Shown in pieces: positions 5,917-22,651 of a DNA stretch of 38,431 nucleotides; position 1 is the first letter of the stretch; the number at the start of each line of letters is the position of its first letter. The position numbers were made by a program, and so were the translations under genes. The notes under the pieces are model-generated. The model worked only from the letters and a program-made list of their open reading frames with translations, made no database searches and was not told the origin of the DNA. Source of the stretch: Methylococcaceae bacterium (GTDB taxonomy: Bacteria; Pseudomonadota; Gammaproteobacteria; Methylococcales; Methylomonadaceae); the NCBI GenBank assembly GCA_024636875.1, contig JAGXGJ010000051.1, positions 1-38,431 on the forward strand. Direction: 5' to 3'.

Positions 5917-6012
5917 AGTCGCTCTATACACGCCATACACGACGGGATTCGGCATACAGTGCTTATAGCTGTGTTTGCGGTTTATCATTCATTCAGACAG
6001 TTGTCGTTCGGC

Positions 6013-6091
6013 TGTGGGAGCGATGCCCACATCGCGACTAAAGGGGAACATCTGGCGTTGAGCTAGTCGCGATGTGGGCATCGCTCCCACA
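6013..6091. repeat. REP-type doublet with perfect 28-bp inverted repeats
   Basis: The left arm starts TGTGGGAGCGATGCCCACAT (6013-6040) and the right arm (6064-6091) is its exact reverse complement. The arms are separated by 23 bases. Each arm itself contains a small palindrome, as in REP sequences, and the whole would fold into a strong cruciform or RNA hairpin about 160 bases before brxA. Confidence 0.85.
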
Positions 6092-6254
6092 AAATGCCTT
6101 GCATGTAACACTGAGTTTTTGTTGAGTAAATCGATAATGTGCCTTAAGCTTGAAATTTTAAAATCAATAAACTGATCATTTACCTTTATCGGAAAGCATT
6201 TCCAATAATGGTTCGAATTAAAAATAACCTGCACTCAACACTTATGGTTAAACT

Positions 6255-7435: not shown

Positions 7436-7451
7436 CCGAGAAGAAAACGAC

Positions 7452-10400
7452 ATGGAAATAAGGGAGCTGTTCACCAAGCCTATTGACCGCCCGATCAATG
7501 GAGTCATCAAGGCCGACCAATTAGATGCTGAAAGTGTCTGGCAGGAATTGGAAGAGTACGTTGTCACCAAACAGCTCACCGAATATTTTCGGAAGTTTTT
7601 CGATGCTTATCTGGCAGCCGCAGAACAGCCCAAAGACTCGACTATTACAGCACGCATGGGCGTCTGGGTATCCGGATTCTTCGGCTCAGGAAAATCACAT
7701 TACATCAAAATACTGTCCTACTTGCTGGAAAATATTGAGGCCATTGACCCCAAAACCGGCAACCCTAAAAAAGCGGCTGATTTTTTTGACGAACACAAAA
7801 TCAAAGACCCGCTGCTGTTGGCTGACATCCACAAAGCCATTAAAGGTACTGCTGATGTCATCCTGTTTAATATCGATGCCAAGGCCGATGCAAAATCCGA
7901 CCGCGATGCCATCGTCCAGGTGTTTCTGCGGGTGTTTAACGAAAAGCAGGGACTTTGTGGTGATGCGCCCCATATTGCCGAAATGGAGCGTTATCTGATT
8001 GCCAAAGGCGCTTACGATACTTTCAAAACAATCTTTCAGGCTCGAAACGGCAATACCTGGCAACAAGAGCGTGATGCCGTGGATTTCCTGCGTGATGAGG
8101 TGATTGCCGCCTTGGCACAAGCACTCAACATGACTGAAGAATCGGCTGGACGTTGGTTTGATAACGCCCGTGATGATTACCGTATCAACATCGAAGGCTT
8201 GGCAAAACTGGTGCGTGATTATCTGGACACCAAACCCGCCGGTCATCGACTTATTTTTTTGGCTGATGAAGTTGGACAGTTTATCGGTGATAACACCCAA
8301 CTCATGTTGAGCCTGCAAACCATCGTTGAACAGTTGGGTACACTGTGCCAGGGACGCGCCTGGGTTATTGTCACCAGCCAGGAAGATATTGATGCCGCCA
8401 TTGGTGAGACCAACAAGGCTAAATCTCAGGACTTCTCCAAAATTCAAGGCCGTTTCCATACCCGGCTGTCTTTGTCCGGAGCCAATACTGACGAGGTCAT
8501 AGGCCAGCGCTTGCTGGCTAAAACTGAGCAAGCCCATGTTGCGTTAAGGGATGTATTTGCTCAAAAGGGCGACATCATAAACAACCAGCTGTCCTTTCTT
8601 GGCAATGCTGTCAATCTTCGTGGTTACCGGGATGCCGCCGAATTTGTGGCCTATTATCCGTTTACCCCTTATCAATTTCAATTGCTGCAAAAAATCTTCG
8701 AATCGATTCGCAAAGTCGGGGCAACTGGCCAACATTTATCGCGTGGTGAACGCTCCTTACTGAATGCCTTCCAGTCAGCTGCCGTACAAAATGCCGGCAA
8801 GCCCATTAATACCTTAATACCTCTCTATGATTTTTATCCGTCCATCGACAGCTTTATTGATAGCGTCGCCAAGAGATCAATTGATCAAGCCCCCTACAAC
8901 GAAGCTCTGGAACCCTACGATACCCTGTTACTTAAGGCTTTATTCCTGATTCGCTACATTTCCGAAACCATCAAGCCTACCATCGACAATCTGGCAACCC
9001 TCTGTGTTGATGAAGTGGATGCCGATAAACTCAGTCTTAAGCGCCGAATTCAGGAATCTTTAGCCAGACTGGAACAACAACAATTAGTTAGCCGTAACGG
9101 TGATCACTGGTTTTTCCTGACCAATGAAGAACGCGATGTTGCCAGAGAGTTGGGGCATGTGGACGTTTCATCAGCGGAAAGAACACGTTTGCTGTCTGAG
9201 CTGGTTTTTGAAGACATCCTCAGAGGGCAAACCAAAGTCAGGCATCGTAACACCAAAGGAGACTACGACTTTAACCGCCTGCTTGATGGTGCGCCGTGGA
9301 AAACGGCTAATCATACGCTAACGCTGGAAATCCTCAGCCCCTTGGGTGATGACTACGAACGGATGCACGAGGCCACTTGCATCATGCGCAGTAGCGAGTC
9401 AACGGGTCGAGCGATCATCCGCATGGCAGAAGGCCAACGGCTCTACGAAGAACTCACGCTTTATCTGCAAATTGAAAAATACATCATCAGTCCTAAAGCC
9501 GGACAGGCAACGCCGTCATTAAAACGTATCCTGGCTGACCGTAAAGAAGAAAACCGTGATCGAAAACTGCGTTTGGTCGAACAACTCAGCCATCTGATGA
9601 CCACTGGAGATTTTTATGTGTTGGGGCAAAAGCCCGGCATTAAAGCCGGATTGCATCCGGCCAGCCTGCTGGATGAAGTAGTCAATTATTTAATTGCCAA
9701 CACCTACAGTAAACTGCCTTATCTTAAATACCGCACACCAGACCCCATTGCAGAAATCAAAGCCGTTCTTTCCGGCGGTGATATTAAGCCGCTCTTGCAA
9801 GACACCCGGAACGAAGAACTTAACCCACTGGCAGTCAACGAACTGCGTCAATACCTGTTACTGGCAGCCTCAGAAAAGCGCGTGTTATTGTCCGATATAA
9901 TCGACCGATTTACCGGTATTCCCTGGGGCTGGAAACCGGAATGGGAAATTGTCTTGCTGCTTGCCAAGCTTTATATGGCCGGTGAGATTAAATTGATGCT
10001 CGAAGGCGCTGACATTGAACCAAAAGCTGCCATAGACCCCTTAACCAAATCGGTTCGATTTAAACAGGTTTCCCTACTCAAACGCAAACAACCACCTCCC
10101 GAATTGCTCAAACGCGCACGGGAATTGCACCGTGAACTGTTTGCCAAATTACCCAGAGAAGAGGAAGACGGCTTAATTACCGATACGCGTGACAGTTTCA
10201 CTACGTGGCAAAATGAACTTAAAAACTACAGTCATGCCGCAACCAGTAAATATTACCCCGGCAAAACAGTGATTGACCAAGCCATTAACCGCATTGGTAA
10301 ACAACTGGCTATTCGGGACAGTTACGAATTCATTGAAACCTTGCTTGCAGGCAAAGACGACTGGTTAGACCTGAGTGATGAGATTCACGATGTCATTAGC

Positions 10401-11045
10401 TTCTATAAAACCCAAATAACCACCTGGCAACGGCTGTTGGAGGCCATGACTGCCTTTACCGACAACCACGAAGCCCTGCAACAGGACATTAACGCCGCCA
10501 ATGCCCTCAAGGAATTAATAGCCATTCGAGATAATCCTGCGCCCTACAGTCAAATTAACCGTATTGATCCATTATTAAATACCGTTGAAACCGTTAACGA
10601 ACACCTGGCAGCCACTGAAAGAGAAATCGCGTTACTAGCCATTGAGCAGAAACTGGCCGAAATTGAAACAGCACTGGATCACGTTAAAGCCAATGCTGAC
10701 TTACGCAATAAAGCCTTGCACCCCATGCAGCAACTCAAAATCAGTATTGCCGGACTAAGCAGTATTCCCCAAATCCGCTACTTGGCTGAACGGGCAGGAA
10801 CTCATTTAGATACAGCAATGGATAATATTGCTGCTGCGCAAAAACAGCCTACTCCCGGCATCAAAGAACCTGGCGCTGGCAATACGGGTACGACGCCACA
10901 AAAACCCGTTAAAGTGATTCGCGCCCAAGAGCTAAGCAACAAAACTTATCTGGAGACAGAAGACGAAGTCGATGCTTACCTGACCAAGTTAAGGAAGGCC
11001 TTAGTAGCCGTCCTGCAAGAAGGCAAAAAAGCCCGGATTCAATAA
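7452..11045 (+). CDS. brxC: BREX protein BrxC (P-loop ATPase)
   Basis: This 1197-residue protein is the large BREX ATPase (PglY/BrxC family), thought to be the core NTPase of the complex with PglX and PglZ. The Walker A motif GFFGSGKSH sits at about residues 75-83, after the conserved GVWVSG lead-in. LIFLADEVGQFIG near residue 266 is the Walker B region. The C-terminal half is helical and ends in the conserved YLETEDEVDAYLTKLRKAL. Length agrees with the family (about 1200), with no frameshift. The next BREX gene, pglX, normally follows directly; here about 1.4 kb of TA genes and a repeat intervene. Confidence 0.95.
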   Translation: MEIRELFTKPIDRPINGVIKADQLDAESVWQELEEYVVTKQLTEYFRKFFDAYLAAAEQPKDSTITARMGVWVSGFFGSGKSHYIKILSYLLENIEAIDPKTGNPKKAADFFDEHKIKDPLLLADIHKAIKGTADVILFNIDAKADAKSDRDAIVQVFLRVFNEKQGLCGDAPHIAEMERYLIAKGAYDTFKTIFQARNGNTWQQERDAVDFLRDEVIAALAQALNMTEESAGRWFDNARDDYRINIEGLAKLVRDYLDTKPAGHRLIFLADEVGQFIGDNTQLMLSLQTIVEQLGTLCQGRAWVIVTSQEDIDAAIGETNKAKSQDFSKIQGRFHTRLSLSGANTDEVIGQRLLAKTEQAHVALRDVFAQKGDIINNQLSFLGNAVNLRGYRDAAEFVAYYPFTPYQFQLLQKIFESIRKVGATGQHLSRGERSLLNAFQSAAVQNAGKPINTLIPLYDFYPSIDSFIDSVAKRSIDQAPYNEALEPYDTLLLKALFLIRYISETIKPTIDNLATLCVDEVDADKLSLKRRIQESLARLEQQQLVSRNGDHWFFLTNEERDVARELGHVDVSSAERTRLLSELVFEDILRGQTKVRHRNTKGDYDFNRLLDGAPWKTANHTLTLEILSPLGDDYERMHEATCIMRSSESTGRAIIRMAEGQRLYEELTLYLQIEKYIISPKAGQATPSLKRILADRKEENRDRKLRLVEQLSHLMTTGDFYVLGQKPGIKAGLHPASLLDEVVNYLIANTYSKLPYLKYRTPDPIAEIKAVLSGGDIKPLLQDTRNEELNPLAVNELRQYLLLAASEKRVLLSDIIDRFTGIPWGWKPEWEIVLLLAKLYMAGEIKLMLEGADIEPKAAIDPLTKSVRFKQVSLLKRKQPPPELLKRARELHRELFAKLPREEEDGLITDTRDSFTTWQNELKNYSHAATSKYYPGKTVIDQAINRIGKQLAIRDSYEFIETLLAGKDDWLDLSDEIHDVISFYKTQITTWQRLLEAMTAFTDNHEALQQDINAANALKELIAIRDNPAPYSQINRIDPLLNTVETVNEHLAATEREIALLAIEQKLAEIETALDHVKANADLRNKALHPMQQLKISIAGLSSIPQIRYLAERAGTHLDTAMDNIAAAQKQPTPGIKEPGAGNTGTTPQKPVKVIRAQELSNKTYLETEDEVDAYLTKLRKALVAVLQEGKKARIQ

Positions 11046-11084
11046 CTTTACTTTGTCAGATTACATGATCATTTTTCCCAAGAT

Positions 11085-11181
11085 CGTCATTCCGGCAGGG
11101 ATTGCCGGAATCCAAGGCCCATGGATGGATTTAAGCTTGCCATCCATGGCGATGGATGCCCGCTTCCCGGCGGGCATGACG
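11085..11181. repeat. REP-like palindromic repeat
   Basis: The element is bounded by CGTCAT and ATGACG. Inside are three nested stems: CCGGCA/TGCCGG, CCATGGATGG/CCATCCATGG and GCCCGC/GCGGGC. The sequence TCATTCCGGCAGGGATTGCC is a well-known intergenic repeat type in Proteobacteria. It lies directly after brxC and may end or attenuate the brx transcript before the TA genes. Confidence 0.8.
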
Positions 11182-11234
11182 AGCTTGCGGATAATCTAGA
11201 AAAGTGGAATGAAAAGAGTTAAACACTCTAAACG

Positions 11235-11280
11235 TTGAACTTGAACATTCTAAAGCGGATAATTTGTTGAAAATTTCAAC
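11235..11280 (+). promoter_or_regulatory. Promoter and palindromic operator of the vapBC module
   Basis: A sigma-70-like promoter is visible: TTGAAC (11235-11240), a 17-base spacer, then GATAAT (11258-11263). Just after it, over the expected transcription start, lies the perfect palindrome GTTGAAAATTTCAAC (11266-11280). This is where the antitoxin of a type II TA module usually binds to repress its own operon. The antitoxin start and its GAGGAG ribosome site follow. This promoter may also feed the downstream BREX genes. Repression by VapB is inferred. Confidence 0.6.
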
Positions 11281-11296
11281 AACTGAGGAGACAATC

Positions 11297-11530
11297 ATGG
11301 CTACTGTCAATTTCAGCGTCCCTGACGATGTTAAAGAAGCGTTTAATATCGCTTACCAAGGACAAAACAAGAGTGCCGTTATTGCCGAACTGATGCGCGA
11401 AGCAGTTGAACGTGCCCAGCGCAAACAACGCAGTCACGATGCGATTGCAGGTATACTGGAACGGCGCAAGCATGCTCCGGCAATCACCGAAGAAGAATTT
11501 CGTGCAGCACGGGAAGAAGGCCGTCCATGA
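11297..11530 (+). CDS. vapB: VapB-like antitoxin
   Basis: This 77-residue protein reads ATVNFSVPDDVKEAFNIAY at its N-terminus, the strand-helix pattern of ribbon-helix-helix (RHH) DNA-binding antitoxins. A charged C-terminal tail that would wrap the toxin follows. I start it at the ATG at 11297, six bases after GAGGAG; the track start at 11264 lacks such a site. The stop overlaps the toxin start by 4 bases (ATGA). It would neutralise the PIN toxin and bind the palindrome at 11266-11280. Confidence 0.8.
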   Translation: MATVNFSVPDDVKEAFNIAYQGQNKSAVIAELMREAVERAQRKQRSHDAIAGILERRKHAPAITEEEFRAAREEGRP

Positions 11531-11949
11531 TTTTGGTGGTCGATGCTAGCGTAGCAATTAAATGGTTCTTTCAGAACCGGGATAATGAAACTGATTGCGA
11601 CTTGGCATTGACCATTTTGGAAAGTGTGGACGCGGGGCGAATCCAACTGGTACAACCGCCGCATTTTATTGCGGAAGTGGCAGCTGTACTTGCCCGCGAA
11701 AAGCCCGGTGAAGCCCAAGATGATCTATCTGATTTGTTGTGCGTCGAATGTCACATCACCCAAGAGCCAGAGATTTATACAACAGCAATCGATCTCTCCA
11801 TTCGTTATCGGCATCATTTGTTCGATACCTTATACCACGCCGTTGCCTTACACACACCCGGCTCAAAATTCATTACTGCCGATGATGCTTACTACCGCAA
11901 AGCACAAGGCATGGGTCATATTGTTCGTTTGCAGGATTATGCTATATGA
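11527..11949 (+). CDS. vapC: VapC-like PIN-domain toxin
   Basis: A 140-residue PIN-domain ribonuclease of the VapC type, which cuts tRNA or rRNA when freed from its antitoxin. The acidic metal-binding residues are all in place: ILVVDASVAIKWF, the Glu of HFIAEVAAVL, the Asp of HLFDTLYHAVAL and FITADDAYY. Length is normal, so this toxin appears intact. It overlaps vapB by ATGA. Its own stop overlaps, as ATGA, the start codon of a decayed copy of the pglX 5' end, which suggests the module was inserted right at the pglX start. Confidence 0.85.
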   Translation: MILVVDASVAIKWFFQNRDNETDCDLALTILESVDAGRIQLVQPPHFIAEVAAVLAREKPGEAQDDLSDLLCVECHITQEPEIYTTAIDLSIRYRHHLFDTLYHAVALHTPGSKFITADDAYYRKAQGMGHIVRLQDYAI

Positions 11950-11996
11950 ACAAAGCCAAATTCAAATCCTGCGCCTCACAATCATGCAAAGATTAA
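11946..11996 (+). pseudogene. Decayed copy of the first 16 pglX codons
   Basis: The bases from ATGAACAAAGCCAAA onward match the start of the real pglX piece at 12416, with 15 identical bases and then about 8 mismatches over 48. It reads MNKAKFKSCASQSCKD then stop, against MNKAKLKAYAPQARKD in pglX. The copy overlaps the vapC stop. The two copies flank the next TA module (12011-12407) as long direct repeats. This is most simply a remnant of the earlier pglX start displaced by that module. Confidence 0.75.
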
Positions 11997-12010
11997 CTGG
12001 AGAAATCGCC

Positions 12011-12238
12011 ATGAACCCGGAAAGACTCGTTTTCAATGATACTCCGGCATTCATTCCGGTACCGGAAGCGCTGCAACATCGCAAAGTTGAAGTAATCCTT
12101 TGTCCATTGGATGAGGACGCCGAGATCGTCGAAGCGCCAACATCCACATGGACAGATTTTTTCAAGCAATTCAGCCGTCAGGTTGACGATGCAACGCCTT
12201 GTGCGCGGGAAGAATTGTATGCCGACCGTTTGCGTTGA
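12011..12238 (+). CDS. VapB-like antitoxin (partner of broken vapC)
   Basis: A 75-residue antitoxin-like protein. Its N-terminal half DTPAFIPVPEALQHRKVEV, followed by ILCPLDED, resembles the AbrB/DUF2281-like start of several VapB antitoxins and matches the antitoxin at 14244 (DTPAFIPVP...QHRK.E...P.D). The C-terminal tail differs. GGAG precedes the ATG by about 9 bases. It overlaps the following PIN fragment by 20 bases in another frame. The reading frame is intact although its toxin is not. Confidence 0.7.
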   Translation: MNPERLVFNDTPAFIPVPEALQHRKVEVILCPLDEDAEIVEAPTSTWTDFFKQFSRQVDDATPCAREELYADRLR

Positions 12239-12407
12239 TACCAACATCTGGATTTATGCGCTCAGTGTCCCAAGTGCTGGAGATTTAAGTAAACATCAAC
12301 TTGCACAAAGTAGCATTCAGACTGCCGGAAAAATCACCCTTACGGCGCAAACTATCAAGCATCAACAACAGATTGACGGCCTTCGCATCATTAACCCTTT
12401 TAAATAA
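12219..12407 (+). pseudogene. VapC PIN toxin with internal deletion
   Basis: The frame opens MPTVCVDTNIWIYALSVP, the first strand of a PIN nuclease with its Asp, and closes QQIDGLRIINPFK, the usual last strand of the same family. The whole is only 62 residues instead of about 130. The middle, which would hold the conserved Glu and Asp residues, is missing after about residue 46, so the protein should be catalytically dead. The deletion kept the frame. It ends 8 bases before the pglX start and removes any normal pglX ribosome site. Confidence 0.7.
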
Positions 12408-12415
12408 AATCACGG

Positions 12416-13360
12416 ATGAACAAAGCCAAACTCAAAGCCTACGCCCCACAAGCCCGTAAAGACTTTATTGCTGCGGTTACTGCCCGTGCCCATCGCATCG
12501 GACTGGCAGAAAAGAACGGTTCTGTGGCGATTGAGCCCGCCGAAAAGAGTGGTGATTTCGTCATCATTGCCGGACAGTCCTGGCCTGCCAAGATCAGCCA
12601 GCAGCGCGATAACCTGATTGCCCTTATTGAGAAAGATGGCTTTAGCCAAACCATGGAAGCGGTGGCTTACACCTGGTTCAACCGCTTTGCCGCATTGCGT
12701 TATATGGAAATCCACGATTACCTCGGCCACGGTTATCGGGTGCTTTCCAGTCGAGAAGGCGGCTTGCCGGAAATACTAAACGCTGCGCCGGAATTGGCAC
12801 AAAACCGCGAACTCCCAGATCTTAATCCGCAACAGGTCATTGAACTCAAACTGGCCGGTGATCAAGACGGCGAACTGTATCGCTTAACGCTGATTGCTCA
12901 ATGTAATGCCCTGTCCAAGGTCATGCCATTTCTGTTTGAACGCATCGACAATGAAACCGAACTGCTACTGCCCGATAATTTATTGCTGACCGATTCAGTT
13001 ATCGCCAAACTGGTCACAGCAATCCCGGAAGAAGACTGGAGCCAGGTAGAAATCATCGGCTGGCTGTATCAATTTTACATCAGCGAGAAAAAGGATCAGG
13101 TCATCGGCAAGGTGGTTAAGTCTGAAGATATTCCCGCCGCCACCCAGCTGTTTACGCCGAACTGGATTGTAAAATACCTGGTGCAAAACAGCATCGGGCG
13201 TTTGTGGTTGATGGCAAAACCAACGTCTGATTTGAAAAATCAATGGGAATACTACATTGAACCTGCCGAGCAAACGCCTGAAGTACAAGCGCAATTAGAC
13301 GCGCTTATTGCCGCGCGAATCGCGGAAGACGAAAAAACAAATTTGAAAAGGAGTGATTGA
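12416..13360 (+). CDS. pglX: PglX (BrxX), N-terminal piece of split BREX methyltransferase
   Basis: This 314-residue piece matches the N-terminal helical region of type 1 PglX: KLKAYAPQARKDFIAAVTARA at the start, the conserved RFAALRYMEIHDYLGHGYRVL, and LFTPNWIVKYLVQNSIGRLW near residue 255, which normally runs into the SAM-binding motif. It stops after IAARIAEDEKTNLKRSD; in intact PglX the text would continue into LNPETITVLDPACGSGH, which here begins the second piece at 15040. There is no clear ribosome-binding site before the ATG, because a TA remnant ends 8 bases upstream. The piece has no catalytic motif of its own and would need to assemble with the C-terminal piece. Confidence 0.9.
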   Translation: MNKAKLKAYAPQARKDFIAAVTARAHRIGLAEKNGSVAIEPAEKSGDFVIIAGQSWPAKISQQRDNLIALIEKDGFSQTMEAVAYTWFNRFAALRYMEIHDYLGHGYRVLSSREGGLPEILNAAPELAQNRELPDLNPQQVIELKLAGDQDGELYRLTLIAQCNALSKVMPFLFERIDNETELLLPDNLLLTDSVIAKLVTAIPEEDWSQVEIIGWLYQFYISEKKDQVIGKVVKSEDIPAATQLFTPNWIVKYLVQNSIGRLWLMAKPTSDLKNQWEYYIEPAEQTPEVQAQLDALIAARIAEDEKTNLKRSD

Positions 13361-13363
13361 TAA

Positions 13364-13539
13364 ATGCCTGAAATATGTCGTTTTCTTGGAATAGTGATTA
13401 GCAAACTCTTAACGTCATTGATGGACATCTACCCGCAAAAGTGCGAGGTTTGGTTGAAGAATGGGCGGAATTACATCAACTTGAATTGATGACAATGTGG
13501 GATACCAAAGAATTTCATAAACTTAACCCTTTAGTTTAG
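13364..13539 (+). pseudogene. DUF4160 protein remnant (internal deletion)
   Basis: The first frame reads MPEICRFLGIVISKLL, the usual start of DUF4160 proteins. A different frame from about 13411 reads GHLPAKVRGLVEEWAELHQ and ends in HKLNPLV, the usual end of the same family. The middle (normally containing HFHAEY) has been lost and the frame shifted, so it is not functional. DUF4160 genes usually pair with a DUF2442 gene, which follows 9 bases later. The remnant begins 3 bases after the stop of the pglX N-terminal piece. Confidence 0.7.
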
Positions 13540-13548
13540 GCAAAAATA

Positions 13549-13815
13549 ATGATAGCAATTACAGAAGCGAACTACCAAAGTGGTTACCAAATTAAATTGA
13601 AGTTCAACACAGGTGAAGAAGGCGTGGTCGATTTGTTGGATCTTATCGAACGTTACAATGTTGCTGCGCCTTTAAAAAATGTGCGCGAATTTCAACAATT
13701 TTATCTTGATGAATGGCCGACGCTTGCCTGGTCATGCGGGTTTGATGTCGCTCCTGAAACGCTCTATGAACGAGCCACAGGCAACAGAGTGCCTTGGTGT
13801 GAAACACAAGATTAG
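13549..13815 (+). CDS. DUF2442 family protein
   Basis: An 88-residue protein of the DUF2442 family: GYQIKLKFNTGEEGVVDLLDLI, then FQQFYLDEWPTLAWSCGFDVAPETLYERA. Such proteins lie next to DUF4160 proteins in a TA-like pair and are regarded as possible antitoxins; their action is not established. The partner upstream is broken while this gene is intact. It lies inside the insertion that splits pglX. Confidence 0.75.
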   Translation: MIAITEANYQSGYQIKLKFNTGEEGVVDLLDLIERYNVAAPLKNVREFQQFYLDEWPTLAWSCGFDVAPETLYERATGNRVPWCETQD

Positions 13816-13824
13816 GAAAAACCC

Positions 13825-14055
13825 ATGCTGACAATAGAACTAGACAACGAAACCGAGCATGCCTTGCAAGAGCTGGCGCTACAGCAAGGTAAAACGTCGG
13901 AACAATGGTTAAAAGAAGTCACTGACCAATTCGTTCAAGTACAAACTCGCCGACAAGAATTTCCCGACCTTACAGAATTTCACAAGACTTTACCGATGCA
14001 AGAAGTCAGTGCAGGGGAGTTTTGCCATGCGATGCGTGACGGAGATCGCTACTAA
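13825..14055 (+). CDS. Small antitoxin-like protein
   Basis: A 76-residue protein starting MLTIELDNETEHALQELALQ, with a pattern (short strand then helices, GKTSEQWLKEV) like RHH antitoxins that precede VapC toxins. Its stop overlaps by one base the ATG of a PIN-type start (MQYVDTSAAL) that is cut off after about ten codons by palindromic repeats. I therefore read it as the surviving antitoxin of a VapBC pair whose toxin is lost. The family name is not certain. Confidence 0.6.
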   Translation: MLTIELDNETEHALQELALQQGKTSEQWLKEVTDQFVQVQTRRQEFPDLTEFHKTLPMQEVSAGEFCHAMRDGDRY

Positions 14056-14084
14056 TGCAATATGTAGACACCAGCGCTGCGCTG
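14055..14084 (+). pseudogene. Truncated start of a VapC PIN toxin
   Basis: MQYVDTSAAL is the characteristic first strand of a PIN nuclease with its catalytic Asp. After ten codons the reading runs into a block of palindromic repeats (14071-14212) and then into the next antitoxin frame, so no PIN domain follows. The 182-residue ORF of the track (14055-14603) is a chance fusion of this stub, the repeats and the next antitoxin. Confidence 0.6.
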
Positions 14085-14212
14085 GCTCCCAAGCTCCTGC
14101 CTGGGAACCCAGATAGCGAAGCTCTTGCTTCGCGAGACAAGAAGCTAGAGCTTCTTGCACCGAATTCCCAAGCTGGAGCTTGGGAACTAGCAAGCTGGAG
14201 CTTGGGAACTAG
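14071..14212. repeat. Cluster of small palindromes
   Basis: At least five short hairpins stand side by side: CCAGCG/CGCTGG, an imperfect CTCCCAAGC/CTGGGAA pair, CGAAGC/GCTTCG, AAGAAGCT/AGCTTCTT and TTCCCAAGCT/AGCTTGGGAA. The last is partly repeated in tandem: a 22-base unit beginning CAAGCTGGAGCTTGGG occurs twice, at 14169-14190 and 14191-14212. The cluster interrupts a vapC gene. A lone related half-copy (CCAGCTTGGGAA) is seen near 2232. Confidence 0.8.
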
Positions 14213-14243
14213 CAAAACTACTACTAGCCAAGAGGACATAATC

Positions 14244-14603
14244 ATGGACCACGCCCGGTTAATTTATGAAGACACACCCGCTTTTATTCCCGTACCAAAA
14301 GAAATGCAACACCGCAAAACAGAAATTACTTTTTTGCCGATGGATGATGAACTGGCACCAGAATCATCCACTACACCACAAACCACAGTAGAGCCAAGTA
14401 AATCATCTGCACTACATCCAGTCGAGTTAGCTGAAGTCAGAGACGTACTATTGTCTGATGAGTTTTTTGCATCTTTAGAAAAGGTAGAAACCAAAAACCC
14501 AAGATCACTGTTGGAACTCATCGGCAAAGGTCAAGGTTGTTTTAAAAATGCAGCTGAAGTTGACGCGTTTATCCGTGCGGAGCGTGATGCGTGGGACAAT
14601 TAA
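14244..14603 (+). CDS. VapB-like antitoxin
   Basis: A 119-residue antitoxin-like protein. Residues 8-35 repeat the motif DTPAFIPVP...MQHRKTEI...P.DD seen in the antitoxin at 12011, so the two are paralogues, but this one has a longer helical C-terminal tail. GAGGA lies about 7 bases before the ATG at 14244; the longer track ORF from 14055 is a fusion with repeats. Its end overlaps the toxin start by 13 bases. It lies within the insertion that splits pglX. Confidence 0.7.
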   Translation: MDHARLIYEDTPAFIPVPKEMQHRKTEITFLPMDDELAPESSTTPQTTVEPSKSSALHPVELAEVRDVLLSDEFFASLEKVETKNPRSLLELIGKGQGCFKNAAEVDAFIRAERDAWDN

Positions 14604-15046
14604 GGCAAGCCTTGCAAGGGCGGAATGTTTATTTAGATGCCAACATTTTTATTTATACCCTCGAAGGAATGGAGCCTTGGGCTAATTTATTATCAGACGT
14701 TTTCGCGGGTTTAACCACAGGTGAATTGTCGGCTGTTACCTGCAGTTTAAGTTTGTCTGAATGTTTGGTAATGCCATTTAAGCAAAACAAAAATGATTTA
14801 GTCGCCGTTTATCGTGAGGCACTCTTACCTGGTCATTATTTAACGATTGCGCCTATTGATGACAGAGTATTAATCTCAGCCGCAAACATTCGCGCCCAAA
14901 CCGGTTTAAAACTTCCCGATGCCATTCACGCCGCGACAGCCTTAATGCAACAATGCACAGCACAGCTCACCAACGACACAGGCTTTAGCCGCGTACCGGG
15001 CATCGAATTGTTTTTATTGTCTAACTGGATTTCCTCACCATGCTAA
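14591..15046 (+). CDS. PIN-domain toxin (VapC family)
   Basis: A 151-residue PIN nuclease with a GTG start. Acidic residues are retained: NVYLDANIFIYTLEG, the Glu in LSLSECLVMPF, the Asp in LKLPDAIHAATAL and TNDTGFSRVPGIEL. The toxin looks intact and pairs with the overlapping antitoxin. Its last codons (SSPC, stop at 15044-15046) run into the first bases of the pglX C-terminal piece, overlapping by 7 bases, which marks the right edge of the insertion in pglX. Translation of the pglX C-terminal piece may be coupled to this toxin. Confidence 0.8.
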   Translation: MGQLRQALQGRNVYLDANIFIYTLEGMEPWANLLSDVFAGLTTGELSAVTCSLSLSECLVMPFKQNKNDLVAVYREALLPGHYLTIAPIDDRVLISAANIRAQTGLKLPDAIHAATALMQQCTAQLTNDTGFSRVPGIELFLLSNWISSPC

Positions 15047-18000
15047 ACCCCGAAACCATCACCGTCCTGGATCCCGCTTGTGGTTCGGGACATATCCTGG
15101 TGGAAGCCTATGAGGTGTTGAAGGCAATTTACCTGGAGCGTGGTTACCGGATGCGCGATATTCCGCGCCTGATTCTGGAAAAGAATCTTTATGGCCTGGA
15201 CATCGACGAACGCGCCGCGCAATTGGCAGGTTTTGCGTTATTGATGAAAGCTCGTGCCGATGATAGGCGGTTGCTGGATAATCCGCCCAAGCTCAACGTG
15301 CTGGCTTTGCAGGAAAGTCCTAAAGCAGTTGAGGGACAAGGGTTTAGGGGCGAGGGGTTAGGCACGAGTGATTTTGACGCATTGTTGCCATTTCTAAGCC
15401 CTCGTCCCTCGTCCCTCGTCCCTAATCCCTATAACCTCATCCCTATCTTGCTGGACACCTTTGCACATGCTAAAACCTTCGGCTCACTGATTCAAATTCC
15501 ATCCGATTTGAATGCGCAACTGCCAGCGATGGACGCCGGTTTGCAGTTGGCCATTCAGAGTGGCGACCTGCTTGCTCAAGAAGCGGCATTAAATCTGTTG
15601 CCTTTGGTGCGGCAGGCGCGGATTTTGGGGATGCAGTTTGATGCAGTAGTGGCGAATCCGCCATATATGGGCGGCAAGGGGATGAATCCGGCGTTGAAGG
15701 ATTATGCTAAACGTGAGTTTCCTGATAGTAAATCTGATTTGTTTGCCATGTTTATAGAGCGCGGATTTGAGTGGTGCAAATCGTCTGGCTTTAACAGCAT
15801 GGTGACTATGCAGAGCTGGATGTTTTTGTCGTCGTTTGAGGCGATGCGAGAAAAATTATTGAAAGAACGAACGCTATCGTGCATGGTTCACATGGGAAAT
15901 GGCGTGATGGGCATTGCTTTTGGAACTGCCGCGACAATTTTTATTAATAAGCATATAAATGACTACGCGGGAAATTTTTCATATTGCGATAATAGCGATT
16001 TAAATGTGCAAAATATACCTTCGCATTTCCCTGTTCAAAATGAACGATTAAAAATTGCTAAGCCAGATGACTTCAAAAATATTCCAGGTAGTCCAGTTGC
16101 ATACTGGATTTCTCAAAACATAAGGGAAACTTTCAAGTTTGGAAAAATTTCGAAGTATGCTGAGCCGGCGGGGCGGTGCAAAACCACACAAGATGATCTC
16201 TATGTGAGGAATGTGTGGGAAGTAAATTCTAAAATGGTTAATGACAAATGGAAGTTTTTATTTAAGGGTGGTAAATCGGTTAAGTATTATGGCAATAAAG
16301 ATTACGTTATAGACTGGTCGCCAGAAGCAAGGTTTTTTTATAGTAGAACTGGAGGCTTGCCTCATGAAAGATATTGGGGAAAAGAAGGTTTAACTTGGAC
16401 TTTTGCAACATCTAGTGAGACTCTCGCTTTCAGATTTAAAGATCAATCCTCTCAATATAGTACGGTCTCCCCAACAATAGTATTTACCGATTCATCAAAA
16501 TTATTTGTGTCGTTATGTCTTTTGAATAGTATTGTTGCAGATAAGCTACTCAAGATACTTAACCCTACGCTTGGACTTAACATTGGAGATGTTTTAAACA
16601 TTCCAATTGACAATATCAGCCAAGACGATTTCAAACTTCTTGAAAAGAATGGAACTGAATTAACTGATATAGCCAAACTTAACTGGGATTCTTATGAAAC
16701 TTCGTGGAGCTTTTTAACAAACCCACTTATCAGCACTCAGCAAAAAACATTAAAAGCTTGTTATTTGCAATGGCAAACGCTAAATAGCCAATCCTTCGCA
16801 AAAATGCAAAGTATTGAAGAAGCAAATAATCGCCTCTTCATTAAAGCCTACGGCCTGCAAGTCGAACTCTCACCCGAAGTTCCCGAAGAGCAAATCACCC
16901 TCGCCCGCGCCGACCGTGAAAAAGACAGCCAACGGCTTATTTCCTATGCCATCGGCTGCATGATGGGGCGTTACCGGCTGGATAAGCCGGGGTTAATTTA
17001 TGCACATGCGGGGAATGTTGATTTCAACAAAATTTATAACGGAGGGAATAGGGATGAGGGACGAGGGGCGAGTGAAATGTTACCAAGACCTGATTGTTTG
17101 GCAGAAAGCAATGGAGTTGGTCGAGCTAGTGTATCGAATGACCAAAGTATTTCCGAACGAGGAACGCTATGGATTAAGCAGCCAGATTCAACGGGCGGCG
17201 GTGTCGATACCCTCGAATATCGCGGAGGGACATGCGAGACAGAGCCGTGCAGAATACCGGAATTTTCTATCCATCGCACAGGGTTCGAGAGCGGAAGTGG
17301 AGACTCAAACGCTGATAGCAGTACGTTTAGGTTATGTAACAGCAGCCCAGACCAAGGAAATAATGTCCTTGCTAGAAGAACTATCGAAAATGCTCAATGC
17401 ACTGAGAACCAAACTAACCTCTCATCCCTAAACCCTAATCCCTTCCTTCCTGACGCCGACGGCATTGTGCCGGTTACCGATGAACTCTGGTTTGAAGACG
17501 ACGCCGCCAACCGTATCGATGAGTTTTTGCAGGCGGCTTTTTTAGGGGTGAGGGATGAGGGGTTAGTGGCTAGGGAACAGGGTTTAGAGGGCAATGAAAC
17601 ATTGGCTACCCCCTCGCCCCTAACCCCTAATCCCTCTAACCTACAATGGCTGGCAGAAAGCCTAGGTCAAAAAGGCAATGAAACCCCACAGGAGACCATT
17701 CGCCGCTATATTGCCGGCAGCTTTTTCAAAGATCACCTGCAAACCTACAAAAAACGCCCGATTTATTGGTTGTTCTCCAGCGGTAAACAAGGTGCATTTC
17801 AGGCCTTGGTTTACTTGCACCGTTACAATGAAAGCACACTCGCCAGAATGCGCGCCGAATATGTCGTGCCTCTCACCGGCAAAATCCAGTCCCGCATCGA
17901 GATGCTGGAAAAAGATGCCGCTGCCGCCTCATCCAACGCAGCCCGCAGCAAGTTGAACAAGGACATCGAAAAGCTCAAGAAAAAACACGTCGAACTCCTC

Positions 18001-18141
18001 GCCTACGACGAAAAACTCCGCCATTACGCCGACCTACGCATCCAGCTCGACCTGGATGACGGCGTAAAAGTAAACTACGGCAAGTTTGGCGATTTACTGG
18101 CGGAAGTGAAGGCGGTGACCGGAGGTACAGGCAATGATTGA
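15040..18141 (+). CDS. pglX: PglX (BrxX), C-terminal catalytic piece of split BREX methyltransferase
   Basis: A 1033-residue piece with all the catalytic motifs of the N6-adenine methyltransferase: SAM motif TVLDPACGSGHILVEAYE at residues 8-25 and NPPYMGGKGM at about 206. The specificity region follows, then the conserved C-terminus TYKKRPIYWLFSSGKQGAFQ and LDDGVKVNYGKFGDLLAEV. PglX normally is one chain of about 1200 residues; here pieces of 314 and 1033 exceed that because three in-frame insertions lie at about residues 98-132, 667-801 and 834-868. The middle one contains a complete gene in another frame. The ATG at 15040 lies 7 bases upstream of the toxin stop and is the first Met before motif I. 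Whether the two pieces form an active enzyme is unknown. Confidence 0.9.
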   Translation: MLNPETITVLDPACGSGHILVEAYEVLKAIYLERGYRMRDIPRLILEKNLYGLDIDERAAQLAGFALLMKARADDRRLLDNPPKLNVLALQESPKAVEGQGFRGEGLGTSDFDALLPFLSPRPSSLVPNPYNLIPILLDTFAHAKTFGSLIQIPSDLNAQLPAMDAGLQLAIQSGDLLAQEAALNLLPLVRQARILGMQFDAVVANPPYMGGKGMNPALKDYAKREFPDSKSDLFAMFIERGFEWCKSSGFNSMVTMQSWMFLSSFEAMREKLLKERTLSCMVHMGNGVMGIAFGTAATIFINKHINDYAGNFSYCDNSDLNVQNIPSHFPVQNERLKIAKPDDFKNIPGSPVAYWISQNIRETFKFGKISKYAEPAGRCKTTQDDLYVRNVWEVNSKMVNDKWKFLFKGGKSVKYYGNKDYVIDWSPEARFFYSRTGGLPHERYWGKEGLTWTFATSSETLAFRFKDQSSQYSTVSPTIVFTDSSKLFVSLCLLNSIVADKLLKILNPTLGLNIGDVLNIPIDNISQDDFKLLEKNGTELTDIAKLNWDSYETSWSFLTNPLISTQQKTLKACYLQWQTLNSQSFAKMQSIEEANNRLFIKAYGLQVELSPEVPEEQITLARADREKDSQRLISYAIGCMMGRYRLDKPGLIYAHAGNVDFNKIYNGGNRDEGRGASEMLPRPDCLAESNGVGRASVSNDQSISERGTLWIKQPDSTGGGVDTLEYRGGTCETEPCRIPEFSIHRTGFESGSGDSNADSSTFRLCNSSPDQGNNVLARRTIENAQCTENQTNLSSLNPNPFLPDADGIVPVTDELWFEDDAANRIDEFLQAAFLGVRDEGLVAREQGLEGNETLATPSPLTPNPSNLQWLAESLGQKGNETPQETIRRYIAGSFFKDHLQTYKKRPIYWLFSSGKQGAFQALVYLHRYNESTLARMRAEYVVPLTGKIQSRIEMLEKDAAAASSNAARSKLNKDIEKLKKKHVELLAYDEKLRHYADLRIQLDLDDGVKVNYGKFGDLLAEVKAVTGGTGND
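15331..15436 (+). repeat. G-rich/C-rich arm pair A, in frame in pglX
   Basis: A purine-rich left arm (15331-15362, GAGGGACAAGGGTTTAGGGG...) and a pyrimidine-rich right arm (about 15397-15436, ending CCCTAATCCCTATAACC) bracket about 34 bases (TSDFDALLPF) that may be original pglX. The arms are near reverse complements of each other and share units such as GAGGGAC and TAGGG. The pglX frame stays open. The right end is nearly the same as in arm pair C (CCTAATCCCTCTAACC). Confidence 0.7.
17041..17442 (+). mobile_element. Arm-bounded element carrying a four-helix-bundle gene, inserted in pglX
   Basis: The element is bounded by GGAGGGAATAGGGATGAGGG at the left and CTCATCCCTAAACCCTAATC at the right, which are approximate inverted repeats. 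Between them is a complete gene (17054-17431) in the +1 frame of pglX. Comparison with normal PglX places the insertion between the residues NKIYN and FLPDADGIVPV, about 134 codons, a multiple of three, so pglX remains open throughout. Start and stop codons of the inner gene lie inside the arms. There is no known transposase; mobility is inferred from the two related arm pairs in the same gene. Confidence 0.65.
17054..17431 (+). CDS. Four-helix bundle protein (S23/IVP family) nested in pglX
   Basis: A 125-residue member of the four-helix-bundle family (PF05635/TIGR02436), first known from intervening sequences in 23S rRNA genes and related to the Avd protein of diversity-generating retroelements. 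The pattern is complete: VKCYQDLIVWQKAMELVELVY, RYGLSSQIQRAAVSIPSNIAEG, RNFLSIAQGSRAEVETQTLIA, LGYVTAAQTKEIMSLLEELSKML. The family is usually 115-125 residues. The track start at 17000 is in pglX; better starts are ATG 17054 (in the G-rich arm) or GTG 17072 (VKCYQDL). It is coded in the +1 frame within pglX on the same strand. Its role is unknown. Confidence 0.85.
   Translation: MRDEGRVKCYQDLIVWQKAMELVELVYRMTKVFPNEERYGLSSQIQRAAVSIPSNIAEGHARQSRAEYRNFLSIAQGSRAEVETQTLIAVRLGYVTAAQTKEIMSLLEELSKMLNALRTKLTSHP
17541..17642 (+). repeat. G-rich/C-rich arm pair C, in frame in pglX
   Basis: The left arm TTTAGGGGTGAGGGATGAGG... (17541-17588) and right arm ...CCCTAATCCCTCTAACC (17609-17642) surround a short core encoding NETLA. 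They are imperfect inverted repeats and resemble the arms of the elements at 15331 and 17041. PglX continues in frame on both sides (FLQAAF before, LQWLAESLGQ after), as in uninterrupted homologues. Confidence 0.7.
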
Positions 18142-19297
18142 AAAAATCCAAATCAAAAACTTTAAGTCGTTAGGCGATGAAGTTAGTTTGCCAATGGCAA
18201 AATTCAATTGCCTAATCGGCATGAATGGTTCTGGCAAAAGCACAGTGCTACAAGCACTTGATTTCATTTCTCAGATTATGATCGGTCACGTTCAAGAATG
18301 GCTGGATAGCCGCAGCTGGACCATCCATGATCTGAGCAGCAAGTTGCGTAAAGAGAGATATATTCTCCTTGCTGTACACTTTAAAACCTCAGACGGGCAA
18401 AAACTGATGTGGCATGGGTTTTTTAATAGGAATGAATTGCGATGCACCGGCGAGTTAGTCAAACTGAATGGAGATAAAATTTTTGAATCGGACGGGCGGC
18501 ATTTCCGACTCGAAGCGCAGCCCTGGCAAGGAATTGCCTTTAATTATCAAGGCTCTTTACTTTCTGTGTTGAAGGACTCCGAATTGTCTGTACCGGTACT
18601 GGAATTCCGTGATGCAATGCGGCGCATACGCTCGCTGGAGCTGCTTTCACCGCAACTAATGCGTAAAAGCGCACGTATTAACGATGTGGATATCGGCGCA
18701 GGTGGGGAAAAATTGGCTGGTTACTTGCACGGTATCAAAGGGGAGACCAGAAAAAAATTGGTCGAGTTGTTGAAAGCTTTTTATCCCAAACTCGAAGATT
18801 TCAAGGTGACAAATCAGCGTGCCGGTTGGAAAAAGTTATCGGTAATCGAACAATATGAAGGGCATCGCTTGGAAACGGAAGCCACACATCTCAGCGATGG
18901 CTTATTGCGGATTCTTGCCGTCCTTGCGCAATCGGGTTCTGATCGTTCATTGATCTTGCTCGATGAAATCGAGAATGGTATTAATCAGGAAATCATCGAA
19001 AAACTGGTTGATACCTTGGTAACCAGTCCGCAACAGATACTGGTCACCACCCATAGTCCATTGATTCTGAATTTTCTTGATGACGAAGTGGCACGCGAGG
19101 CGGTTCAGTTCATCTACAAGACACCGCAGGGTGAATCGCGCATACGGCCTTTCTTTGAGATTCCTCGCATCGGCGAGAAGCTGAGTTATATGGGTCCGGG
19201 TGATGCCTTTGTGGATACCAATCTGGAAGCTTTGACAGAAGAATGTATCGAATTGGATCGTTCCGACAAAAGCCCCCGTTTGGAAGAAATTGAATGA
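18134..19297 (+). CDS. AAA/ABC-like ATPase (RecF/OLD-like), BREX-nested
   Basis: A 387-residue ATPase of the AAA_21/OLD-like group. Walker A GMNGSGKST is at residues 29-37, directly after IKNFKSLGDEVSLPMAKFNCLI. The signature-like THLSDGLLRILAVL is near 250-262, Walker B LILLDEIENGIN near 272, and the switch His ILVTTHSPLILNFL near 303. Such ATPases sense phage components and activate a partner nuclease in systems such as PARIS, Gabija and Abi/OLD pairs. It overlaps pglX by 8 bases and the next gene by 4 (ATGA), so it is part of the BREX transcript. It is not a core BREX gene. The defence role is inferred from context. Confidence 0.8.
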   Translation: MIEKIQIKNFKSLGDEVSLPMAKFNCLIGMNGSGKSTVLQALDFISQIMIGHVQEWLDSRSWTIHDLSSKLRKERYILLAVHFKTSDGQKLMWHGFFNRNELRCTGELVKLNGDKIFESDGRHFRLEAQPWQGIAFNYQGSLLSVLKDSELSVPVLEFRDAMRRIRSLELLSPQLMRKSARINDVDIGAGGEKLAGYLHGIKGETRKKLVELLKAFYPKLEDFKVTNQRAGWKKLSVIEQYEGHRLETEATHLSDGLLRILAVLAQSGSDRSLILLDEIENGINQEIIEKLVDTLVTSPQQILVTTHSPLILNFLDDEVAREAVQFIYKTPQGESRIRPFFEIPRIGEKLSYMGPGDAFVDTNLEALTEECIELDRSDKSPRLEEIE

Positions 19298-20028
19298 TAT
19301 TGGTGTTAAGTGGAGAAGGTCCAACTGATTTAGGCTCTTGCACCAATTCTCTCGGACAATGTTGCGGCGATGACTTAGCCATCGGGCCTTTAACCGTATT
19401 GATTGACCAAATAATCACCCGATTGCAAGGGCGCTCAGTGTTGGCAAATCGGGATCGGCTTTATTACGTAAGCGAATCAAAACTTCGGGAGCGTGCTAAA
19501 GCACTCCCAGGTCGGCTAAAACCAGCTCGAAGCAAAAAGAGAGAGGCTGAAACAGGCTATTTCTTTGGCAATGCTGTAGCCCTTGGTGTAATTGCAAAAG
19601 AACTTGAGACCGAAACCGGACAAAACGCAATCGCTGTTCTGCACCGTGACTGCGACTCTACACGTTCCGGCCAAGCTGGGATGTGGAAAATTAAACATAA
19701 CTCTATGCTTGATGGATTTAAGTTTACCCGATTTTCACAGGGTGTGCCGATGCTACCCAAGCCAACCTCGGAGGTTTGGTGGCTTTGCGCTGCACAGCAA
19801 CAATCCTATCAGCATTGTTCACAGCTCGAAGATTTGCCCGGCAATCAGGCTTCTCTAAATCATCCAAAGAAAAAACTGGAACAAGTATTTGGCGGACACA
19901 AAACCGCAGCCGAACTTTGCGAATGGCTTGATGAAAATCCTTTTGATTTTGACCGTGCCGAATCAATGCCGAGTTTTAAAGCATTCGAGGTTGAGCTCGA
20001 ACGTGTGGTTAACGAGTTGATACATTAA
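19294..20028 (+). CDS. Toprim/DUF4276-like partner protein of the ATPase
   Basis: A 244-residue protein without a family name I can fix. The start MILVLSGEGPTDLG has the Glu of a Toprim-type active site, IAVLHRDCDSTR supplies the D-x-D motif, and PKPTSEVWWLCAAQ resembles the third acidic segment (E.W.L) of DUF4276/RloB-like proteins. Toprim proteins paired with AAA ATPases are the nuclease effectors of several anti-phage systems, so an effector role is plausible. Start and ATPase stop overlap by ATGA. After the stop, pglZ begins within 12 bases. Family assignment is by motif only. Confidence 0.6.
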   Translation: MILVLSGEGPTDLGSCTNSLGQCCGDDLAIGPLTVLIDQIITRLQGRSVLANRDRLYYVSESKLRERAKALPGRLKPARSKKREAETGYFFGNAVALGVIAKELETETGQNAIAVLHRDCDSTRSGQAGMWKIKHNSMLDGFKFTRFSQGVPMLPKPTSEVWWLCAAQQQSYQHCSQLEDLPGNQASLNHPKKKLEQVFGGHKTAAELCEWLDENPFDFDRAESMPSFKAFEVELERVVNELIH

Positions 20029-20039
20029 GGAACCCTATT

Positions 20040-22646
20040 TTGAGCCTACAACGCATCACCGATTCCCTGGCTGTCTTGTTTGCCTCGCATCCTATTGTGT
20101 TTTGGCATGATTCGGAAGGTGAATTTTCAGCAACGCTGGATAATCTTGCCCTGGATAATATCAATCTTGTCCGTTTGCAGGAGACACCGGCGCTACAAAT
20201 CAAAATGGCTATTGAACGCCAGCCTGAGCAGCGTTGGCTGTTTTATAGCACTCAGCCGGAACCGGACCCTGATAAAGATTGGTTATTGGATATTCGCTTA
20301 CGCAGTAAATCCTTTAAAGCCGATTCGACCTCAATCTTGCTGGATGATTTAGGTCTGGTTTCGCAAACTTTACGCGGGCATTTAAAAGAGCGAGCCAAGT
20401 TCCTACGCGCTAAAGAACGGGTTGAACGCTTAAGGCGTCTGGTGGCCGCCAGCGATAATGCAGACGACCTTGACCGGAAAATGTTGGCGGTTTTAACCCG
20501 TGCCGACCAGCCTGAATTGTTCTCTATTCTGCAACGCTTGTTTGCAACCTTGGTTGTTGATGGCGAAGTTAATCTCAATGCTCAGCCGAAAATCTGGCAG
20601 GACATCATCGCTAACGATCTGGAGGATGCCTTTTGGCTATTGGCAAAAACACAGCTAGGTTATGCCGAGACTGAACCGGGTTTGCGTGATTTATTGTTCC
20701 GTATTCTGGTGACTGATTTTTCTCGTTCATTCATGGATGAGCCCGCTGAAGCATTGAAGCATTTTATACTGCCTGAACGTAACCTCACCGCTAATGCTTC
20801 GGTGTTTGCTTCGCGATGGCGATCTGATTTAGCGCACTTTACCAGTTACAATCTGATTACAGCGGTGGTTGGACGTGACTTAGGGTTGGCTCATTTATTA
20901 GGTGGACTCTCGGCTGAGGACTTATCCGAGGTGATGACGTTTGAAGAAGTTGAACGCCGTATCATCAGTGATTTGAAGGATAGGGTTCTAGGTGCTGCGG
21001 GAGCCGCGATGGATTCTGTACTGACGCTGATTGCGCTGCGCAGGGATGGGCATTGGGCTAATCAAATTCTGGCTAATGCCAATGATGTGAACCGTGCTTT
21101 GGCTGCCAGTTATGATGCGTTGAAAGCCGCGACACATTTTTTAACCTTAAAGGATCAGCACAGGGAAGGTTTTAGTTTTGCTTCAAGTGCGGCGGGGTTT
21201 TCTACTTATCAAACAGAGTTATATCGATTTGATCAACTCTATCGACACTTTAACCGCGCTACCGAATTTGTCGAGCCTATGGGTTGGGCGGTTTTGCATG
21301 AATTAAAGCAACGTATTGAAGCGGCTTATTCAGGCTGGTTTATCCCCCAGTTAAGTTCGGCTTGGGGTAAGATTCTGGAAGGTGAGGCTGGATTGCTGTC
21401 ATCCTGGCGGATACCCGGCGTCATAAATCAGCAGAACTTTTTTGATAAGGTTGTATTGCCTTTGTCTGACGGTGGCACTAAACGGGTATTTGTCATCATT
21501 TCCGATGCGTTTCGTTTCGAGGTGGCAGAGGAGCTGGTTCAGATTATCAATAGTAAGAGCCGGTTTAAAGCGGTACTTTCCAGTCTATTAGGGGTATTGC
21601 CCAGTTATACCGGTTTGGGCATGGCATCACTGTTACCACATCAAACCTTGGCGTATAAAATTAACAGCAGTCTGGAACTGATGGCCGATGGCAAGCCGGT
21701 ATCGACCATGGAACAACGCAGCGCTTATTTAGCGGCGTATTCCGGGGCTGCCATTAAAGCCGAAGATTTGTTGGCAATGGGTAAAGATAAAGGCAGGGAA
21801 TTCGTTCGTGAACGCCGGTTGATTTATATTTACCATGACCGTATTGATTTGATTGGCGATAAACAGTCTTCCGAGACCAAGACTTTTGAGGCCGCCGCCG
21901 ATACTGTCATTGAGCTTGCCCAATTGGCCGGTTTTATCGTCAATAGTCTGAATGGCTATAATGTCCTGGTAACTGCCGATCATGGTTTTATGTACCAGGA
22001 ATCGGCGTTGGAAGAAGCCGATAAATCAACACTTTCTGAAAAACCGGAAGGGACGTTAGTGGCGAAAAAACGTTATTTATTGGGGCAAGGTATCGGTTGC
22101 AATGCTAAAGCCTGGTCTGGAAACACCGCATTGACGGCTGGGACTGAACCAGAAGGCAGTCTCGATTTCTGGATACCTAAAGGCGCAAACCGGTTTCATT
22201 TTAGCGGTGGCGCACGATTTGTTCATGGTAGTGCCATGCCTCAGGAAATAGTGGTTCCGGTGATTGCAATCCGTTCAACAGAATCGGCGTTAGCCAAAAC
22301 CAAGGTAGTTAGTATCAGTTTGCTGGGGGCATCCAACAAGGTGGTTACCAATACTCAACGTTTTGAGTTTATCCAGAATGAAGCCGTTTCCGAGCGTGTA
22401 TTACCTCGCGCATTAGTGATCTCTTTGCGTGATGGTGACCAGCCTATCAGTAATGAACAGACCGTCACCTTCGATAGCAGCTCGCAACTGCTTGATGAAC
22501 GCAAACGTTCGTTGTTGCTAACGGTGTTGTCGGGTTCTTATGACCGTAACAAAGACTATTATCTGGTTGCCCGTGATGCAGCAACCAAGGTAGAAGTGCT
22601 GCGTGCGCCAGTGAAAGTTGATCTGGCCTTCAGTAACGATTTTTAG
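20040..22646 (+). CDS. pglZ: BREX protein PglZ (alkaline phosphatase superfamily)
   Basis: An 868-residue PglZ, a core BREX protein with an alkaline-phosphatase-like fold that acts with BrxC and PglX. The metal-site strand is FVIISDAFRFEVAEELVQ at about residue 482 and the second is NVLVTADHGFMYQ at about 640, followed by RFHFSGGARFVHGSAMPQEIVVPVIAI with metal-binding His residues. Length matches type 1 PglZ (about 830-880). The start is TTG, eight bases after AAGGA; no in-frame ATG near would keep the conserved N-terminus. No disruption is seen. Confidence 0.93.
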   Translation: MSLQRITDSLAVLFASHPIVFWHDSEGEFSATLDNLALDNINLVRLQETPALQIKMAIERQPEQRWLFYSTQPEPDPDKDWLLDIRLRSKSFKADSTSILLDDLGLVSQTLRGHLKERAKFLRAKERVERLRRLVAASDNADDLDRKMLAVLTRADQPELFSILQRLFATLVVDGEVNLNAQPKIWQDIIANDLEDAFWLLAKTQLGYAETEPGLRDLLFRILVTDFSRSFMDEPAEALKHFILPERNLTANASVFASRWRSDLAHFTSYNLITAVVGRDLGLAHLLGGLSAEDLSEVMTFEEVERRIISDLKDRVLGAAGAAMDSVLTLIALRRDGHWANQILANANDVNRALAASYDALKAATHFLTLKDQHREGFSFASSAAGFSTYQTELYRFDQLYRHFNRATEFVEPMGWAVLHELKQRIEAAYSGWFIPQLSSAWGKILEGEAGLLSSWRIPGVINQQNFFDKVVLPLSDGGTKRVFVIISDAFRFEVAEELVQIINSKSRFKAVLSSLLGVLPSYTGLGMASLLPHQTLAYKINSSLELMADGKPVSTMEQRSAYLAAYSGAAIKAEDLLAMGKDKGREFVRERRLIYIYHDRIDLIGDKQSSETKTFEAAADTVIELAQLAGFIVNSLNGYNVLVTADHGFMYQESALEEADKSTLSEKPEGTLVAKKRYLLGQGIGCNAKAWSGNTALTAGTEPEGSLDFWIPKGANRFHFSGGARFVHGSAMPQEIVVPVIAIRSTESALAKTKVVSISLLGASNKVVTNTQRFEFIQNEAVSERVLPRALVISLRDGDQPISNEQTVTFDSSSQLLDERKRSLLLTVLSGSYDRNKDYYLVARDAATKVEVLRAPVKVDLAFSNDF

Positions 22647-22651
22647 GATGG

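Follow-up and report, generated by a model that had tools for sequence, protein, structure and literature searches.

Little is known about how BREX systems are regulated, and toxin-antitoxin (TA) modules frequently occur in defence loci for no obvious reason. In type II TA modules, the operator as a rule overlaps the promoter (PMC3920265). In the type 1 BREX system StySA of Salmonella, transcription also starts inside the operon, the terminator between brxC and pglX is leaky, and the slot between pglX and pglZ holds an ATPase/DUF4435 pair (PMC9009780). The internal starts mapped in StySA are located in pglX, in the ATPase gene and in the DUF4435 gene, and no TA promoter is described at its brxC-pglX junction (PMC9009780). 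The Acinetobacter regulator BrxR is a WYL protein encoded at the head of a BREX operon that is transcribed as one mRNA, and its site overlaps a promoter (PMC9122589). Back-up nuclease effectors, PIN RNases among them, lie within core BREX loci according to another study (PMC12839542). The text of that study contains neither 'VapC' nor 'split', and no TA operator or TA-split pglX was found in the passages covered.

The DNA analysed here (the window, 38,431 nucleotides of a Methylococcaceae contig, JAGXGJ010000051.1) carries brxA, brxB, brxC, pglX, pglZ and brxL in the type 1 order, as assigned by PADLOC and Pfam, and like StySA it has an accessory ATPase pair between pglX and pglZ. A vapBC module, likewise encoding a PIN protein within the core locus, stands between brxC and pglX (Table 1). 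An internal promoter at this place would matter because of the internal starts and the leaky brxC-pglX terminator of the Salmonella operon. VapB resembles BrxR in being a small protein, predicted to bind DNA, that is encoded with BREX and has its site over a promoter, but it is a TA antitoxin encoded in mid-operon. The module shares with FitAB-like VapBC modules of the ribbon-helix-helix (RHH) type the gene order antitoxin-toxin, a 4-nt overlap of the two genes, a PIN toxin with conserved acidic residues and a palindrome adjoining the -10 box. It differs from them in lying inside a BREX operon and in having a VapB without a sequence relative in the PDB. We consider it likely that the junction holds an autoregulated type II TA promoter that is also an internal source of mRNA for the BREX genes behind it.

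Table 1 Features of the BREX locus around the TA module (positions in the window)
Feature	Position	Strand	Basis or remark
brxC, upstream neighbour of the TA module	7452..11045	+	PADLOC BrxC, E=0
dispersed MITE-like repeat, downstream of brxC and upstream of the vapB promoter	11046..11225 (about)	+	31 matches in the genome
-35 hexamer TTGAAC	11235..11240	+	read in the window sequence
-10 hexamer GATAAT, adjoining the operator	11258..11263	+	read in the window sequence
putative VapB operator, perfect 19-nt palindrome TTGTTGAAAATTTCAACAA	11264..11282	.	spans the expected start site
Shine-Dalgarno sequence GAGGAG of vapB	11285..11290	+	
vapB, RHH-like antitoxin, 77 aa	11297..11530	+	
vapC, PIN toxin, 140 aa	11527..11949	+	PF01850, 4.3e-10
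pglX start remnant, 48 nt, overlapping the vapC stop (ATGA)	11946..11993	+	scar of a former vapC-pglX overlap
second antitoxin-like ORF (AT2, 75 aa), between vapC and pglX	12011..12238	+	no Pfam match
truncated PIN toxin of the second TA module	12219..12407	+	intact relative in L176
pglX N-terminal ORF	12416..13360	+	profile positions 1-305
TA genes inside pglX	13549..15046	+	DUF2442 (DhiA-like), RelB-like antitoxin, chimeric ORF, PIN toxin (14591-15046)
pglX C-terminal ORF (MTase, TRD, CTD)	15040..18141	+	profile from 304; own ATG overlaps the PIN stop
ATPase pair	18134..20028	+	PADLOC candidate PDC-M25A/B, between pglX and pglZ
pglZ and brxL, last genes of the presumed read-through unit	20040..24709	+	

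A preliminary description of the window had claimed a promoter of two hexamers 17 bases apart and a perfect 15-base palindrome before vapB. The promoter is present as claimed (11235-11263, 17-nt spacer), and so is the palindrome, which turned out to be longer: it is an inverted repeat of 19 nt, with 9+1+9 structure (TTGTTGAAA-A-TTTCAACAA), beginning one base past the -10 box and spanning the position, about 11270, where transcription is expected to start. The promoter score was rejected as evidence, since consensus matches occur at chance level: 26 sites with a match as good as this one (9 of 12 positions) were counted in 19 kb, versus 28.6 ± 4.9 in shuffled sequences. As the match alone was thus unremarkable, conservation among relatives was tested. 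With arms of at least 9 nt and a gap of at most 6 nt, 9 perfect palindromes, some of them in repeat elements, were found in the window, versus 0.4 in shuffles. The exact operator occurs once in the genome, at vapB; none was found upstream of brxA or elsewhere in this genome. An Rfam scan of 5180-15100 returned no RNA family.

Two surveys supplied the relatives. VapC was searched over 200 related genomes, with a match in 44, and VapB over a collection with one genome per species, which gave 232 relatives, the best 80 of which were fetched. Among these best 80, TTGTTGAAAnTTTCAACAA was found at most 70 nt upstream of vapB in 78 of the 79 loci with usable upstream DNA, up to 3 mismatches being permitted in its 18 positions. 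The 19 operator columns hold about 32 bits over 76 non-redundant loci (at most 4 mismatches, a cut-off that excluded one locus; near-duplicates removed), and columns -45 to -31 hold on average about 0.04 bit each. Choosing relatives by VapB or VapC similarity inflates operator conservation through shared descent, but the flanks are nonetheless saturated. In most of the 76 loci, a -10-like hexamer adjoins the palindrome and is itself preceded, at a distance of 17 nt, by a TTG-type -35. The operator-bearing loci are from betaproteobacteria and gammaproteobacteria, with a few from neighbouring groups; most lie on contigs of metagenome-assembled genomes, some of low coverage. Two homologues from the first survey lack the palindrome and have a diverged VapB N-terminus (L056, with MATMILDVPDQ, and L038), as expected if the N-terminus of VapB reads the palindrome. 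Judged by this conservation, the palindrome is the autoregulatory operator, overlapping the promoter, of a TA family with RHH-like antitoxins and PIN toxins (VapBC), and the decisive evidence for the promoter-operator is comparative, rather than the promoter match. A literature search, which covered few subscription papers, found no described match to TTGTTGAAAnTTTCAACAA.

The two genes have the features of a VapBC pair, the small antitoxin gene lying upstream and overlapping vapC by 4 nt. Purifying selection acts on both, with dN/dS of 0.07-0.15 for one gene and 0.09-0.24 for the other. The acidic quartet of VapC (D6, E50, D100, D119), expected of a PIN toxin, is invariant in 10 homologues. 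Profile matches of VapB to RHH, CcdA and PSK_trans_fac were weak; its monomer model has helices at 10-19 and 25-59 and an extended N-terminus. Foldseek with this model gave no significant match (FitA at E=2.8), and neither VapB nor VapC had a match in a PDB sequence search. We call VapB RHH-like on the strength of its sequence pattern and model and, weakly, of the profiles.

In 13 genomes the module occupies the brxC-pglX junction. Among BREX loci readable across this junction (BrxC relatedness of at least 55%, the proportions referring to the genomes sampled), a TA or antitoxin gene was present in 13 of 13 genomes; it was this vapB in 10 of them, and the remaining three had other TA or antitoxin genes. 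In six loci (L056, L067, L069, L081, L082, L178) the vapC stop and the pglX start overlap as ATGA, and L077 has the two genes in the same register, giving six or seven genomes overall. L067 comes from a cultivated relative, Methylovulum psychrotolerans Sph1. The 48-nt remnant behind vapC (Table 1) indicates that the window, too, formerly had this overlap, and that a second, degraded TA module (12011-12407) now intervenes before the pglX start at 12416. No terminator-like site was predicted on the forward strand between vapC and pglX in the window, and the downstream genes nearly all overlap or lie at most 12 nt apart, the exception being a 188-nt gap after the N-terminal pglX ORF. The ATGA overlap, the tight packing and the lack of a predicted terminator make read-through into pglX likely. 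A comparison of predicted terminators behind BREX and non-BREX vapBC copies (0 of 14 versus 1 of 60) did not discriminate between them, and Rho-dependent ends are invisible to such a scan.

The placement of a TA promoter and operator in the middle of the BREX operon was thus borne out by the conservation and by the position between brxC and pglX, and transcription beyond pglX, as the preliminary description had proposed, appears likely from the gene arrangement. The named targets (pglX, the ATPase pair, pglZ and brxL) are all there, except that pglX is not one ORF but split in two. That the read-through makes a substantial contribution to the expression of pglX to brxL seems to us somewhat more probable than the opposite.

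We propose that a type II TA module with an RHH-like VapB and a PIN-type VapC settled at the brxC-pglX junction. VapB dimers, probably with VapC, would bind the 19-nt palindrome over the edge of the -10 box and the start site and thereby repress the promoter, as its anatomy and conservation suggest. Transcripts from the vapB promoter would provide a second, internal source of mRNA for pglX, the ATPase pair, pglZ and brxL, as argued by the 4-nt vapC-pglX overlap (former in the window, present in relatives) and the absence of a terminator, and would add to those coming from upstream of brxA. The self-repressed TA switch would thus probably contribute to transcription of the defence genes that follow. 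The operator itself would be maintained for the self-control of the TA module, control of BREX being a by-product of position.

About 60 vapBC copies outside BREX, among the best 80 of the 232 VapB relatives, carry the same operator; next to decayed BREX genes (L068, L072), vapB, vapC and the operator have all been retained; and no operator was found at brxA, brxB or brxC. These observations speak for an operator retained on behalf of the TA module rather than of BREX. The preliminary description had suggested that autorepression by the antitoxin could govern the downstream BREX genes, whose expression might rise when the antitoxin is lost in an infection; of this, the promoter-operator and the likely read-through stand, but neither an operator serving BREX nor an induction of BREX through antitoxin loss is supported. 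On the VapC tree, the BREX label changes six times, at least five of these changes being forced by supported branches, and the module has therefore entered or left BREX loci on several occasions. The notion that this vapBC family resides in defence operons generally was rejected, since the sampled neighbours of non-BREX copies are mostly metabolic or transport genes; two exceptions, L099 and L100, have restriction-modification or nuclease-like neighbours.

We considered the possibility that vapBC is purely a passenger or addiction module whose promoter is irrelevant to BREX, and which is held at the junction because losing it, or the operon around it, would free VapC. The many non-BREX copies, the repeated label changes, the persistence beside decayed BREX and the different TA types that fill the same junction in other genomes all fit this explanation. 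On the other hand, six or seven genomes have vapC overlapping pglX by 4 nt, which makes transcriptional isolation unlikely, though an internal terminator could permit it; we regard the pure passenger as rather unlikely.

VapC might also act as a back-up suicide effector, released when BREX failure or shut-off in infection depletes VapB. The active-site residues of VapC are conserved, and PIN RNases and other back-up effectors are reported inside BREX loci (PMC12839542). Yet vapB stands behind a promoter of its own and would be derepressed under such conditions, and the link between BREX failure and the VapB level is purely postulated, which leaves this explanation doubtful.

A more direct role, in which VapB is a BREX regulator that holds pglX to brxL down at rest and whose loss in infection raises BREX, fits the position and the read-through anatomy, as well as the recurrence of vapB at the junction in 10 of 13 related BREX genomes, with other TA or antitoxin genes in three. 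Against it speak the roughly 60 non-BREX loci sharing the operator and the persistence of vapBC and operator where BREX has decayed. Moreover, a full-length transcript begun ahead of brxA would bypass the operator, and no VapB operator lies at the first promoter of the operon, as a BrxR-like role would require; brxA, brxB and brxC are therefore outside its control. An operator upstream of brxA was sought as a link in trans and none was found, and the brxA upstream regions do not align. We judge this role to be very improbable. A TA-BREX hybrid, in which the level of the second half of the operon is determined by the VapB operator, toxin control is coupled to expression of the methyltransferase by TA modules nested in a pglX that stays split for good, and phage shut-off or antitoxin decay raises BREX and, on failure, frees VapC, is highly speculative and hardly to be expected.

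Under the favoured reading, that of an autoregulated TA promoter with read-through, many genomes have a sharply defined, conserved TA operator built into a BREX operon, with translational overlap between the toxin gene and the methyltransferase gene, and the junction offers a clean case for testing whether the self-control of an antitoxin also affects a defence system.

The gap between brxC and the vapB promoter is filled in the window by a MITE-like repeat, which is absent from L041/L042; a related element lies in the same gap in G033 (L054/L144). The folding of the repeat strand is strong (-78.9 kcal/mol, z -6.6). It has no U-tract and is no canonical terminator, but the transcript coming from upstream may be protected or attenuated by it.

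The junction is one of two recurrent sites of TA insertion, the second lying in pglX itself, immediately ahead of methyltransferase motif I. The best match of both pglX parts is NCBIfam BREX_1 PglX, and the single polypeptide typical of type 1 BREX is here divided around TA genes (Table 1). The gene is split in the window and in L066, L069, L077, L081, L082, L177, L179, L180 and L192 (about ten genomes; L066 and L180 both belong to genome G035). All split loci share one site, ahead of LNPET, the motif with which the methyltransferase core begins, and the downstream half begins with ATGCTAA in 9 of 10 of them. The inserted genes vary: PIN toxins with various antitoxins, UPF0175-DUF3368 and DUF4160-DUF2442. 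In G119 (L041), TA sequence follows the N-terminal part of pglX where the TA-split begins, and the contig ends there. Most of the N-terminal half is lost in L077, and pglX of L069 has frameshifts that may be low-coverage errors.

Both halves have dN/dS values as low as those of intact loci in the window, L066, L082, L177, L179 and L180, indicating purifying selection, so that a two-chain PglX is probably functional in these six split loci. As both halves are conserved in the tested loci, we treat the split pglX as a variant gene of a type 1 BREX locus. The literature search, again with few subscription papers covered, found no report of these TA insertion sites or of a TA-split pglX; the recurrent split, if confirmed, would mean that PglX is able to work as two chains.

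At the brxC-pglX junction of distant BREX loci, we saw SbcD/SbcC-like genes (L184, L185 and L187, judged by eye), pairs of ATPase and nuclease-like genes (L190-L193) and RHH plus GNAT-like genes (L181). Within the split of the window, the chimeric ORF (14055-14603) begins with residues resembling the start of a PIN toxin and continues, probably from 14244, as an AT2-like antitoxin. About 138 residues of PglX between TRD and CTD (17029-17443) do not align to PglX of the relatives, and the corresponding DNA is unique in the genome except for a 30-nt match at 15401-15430.
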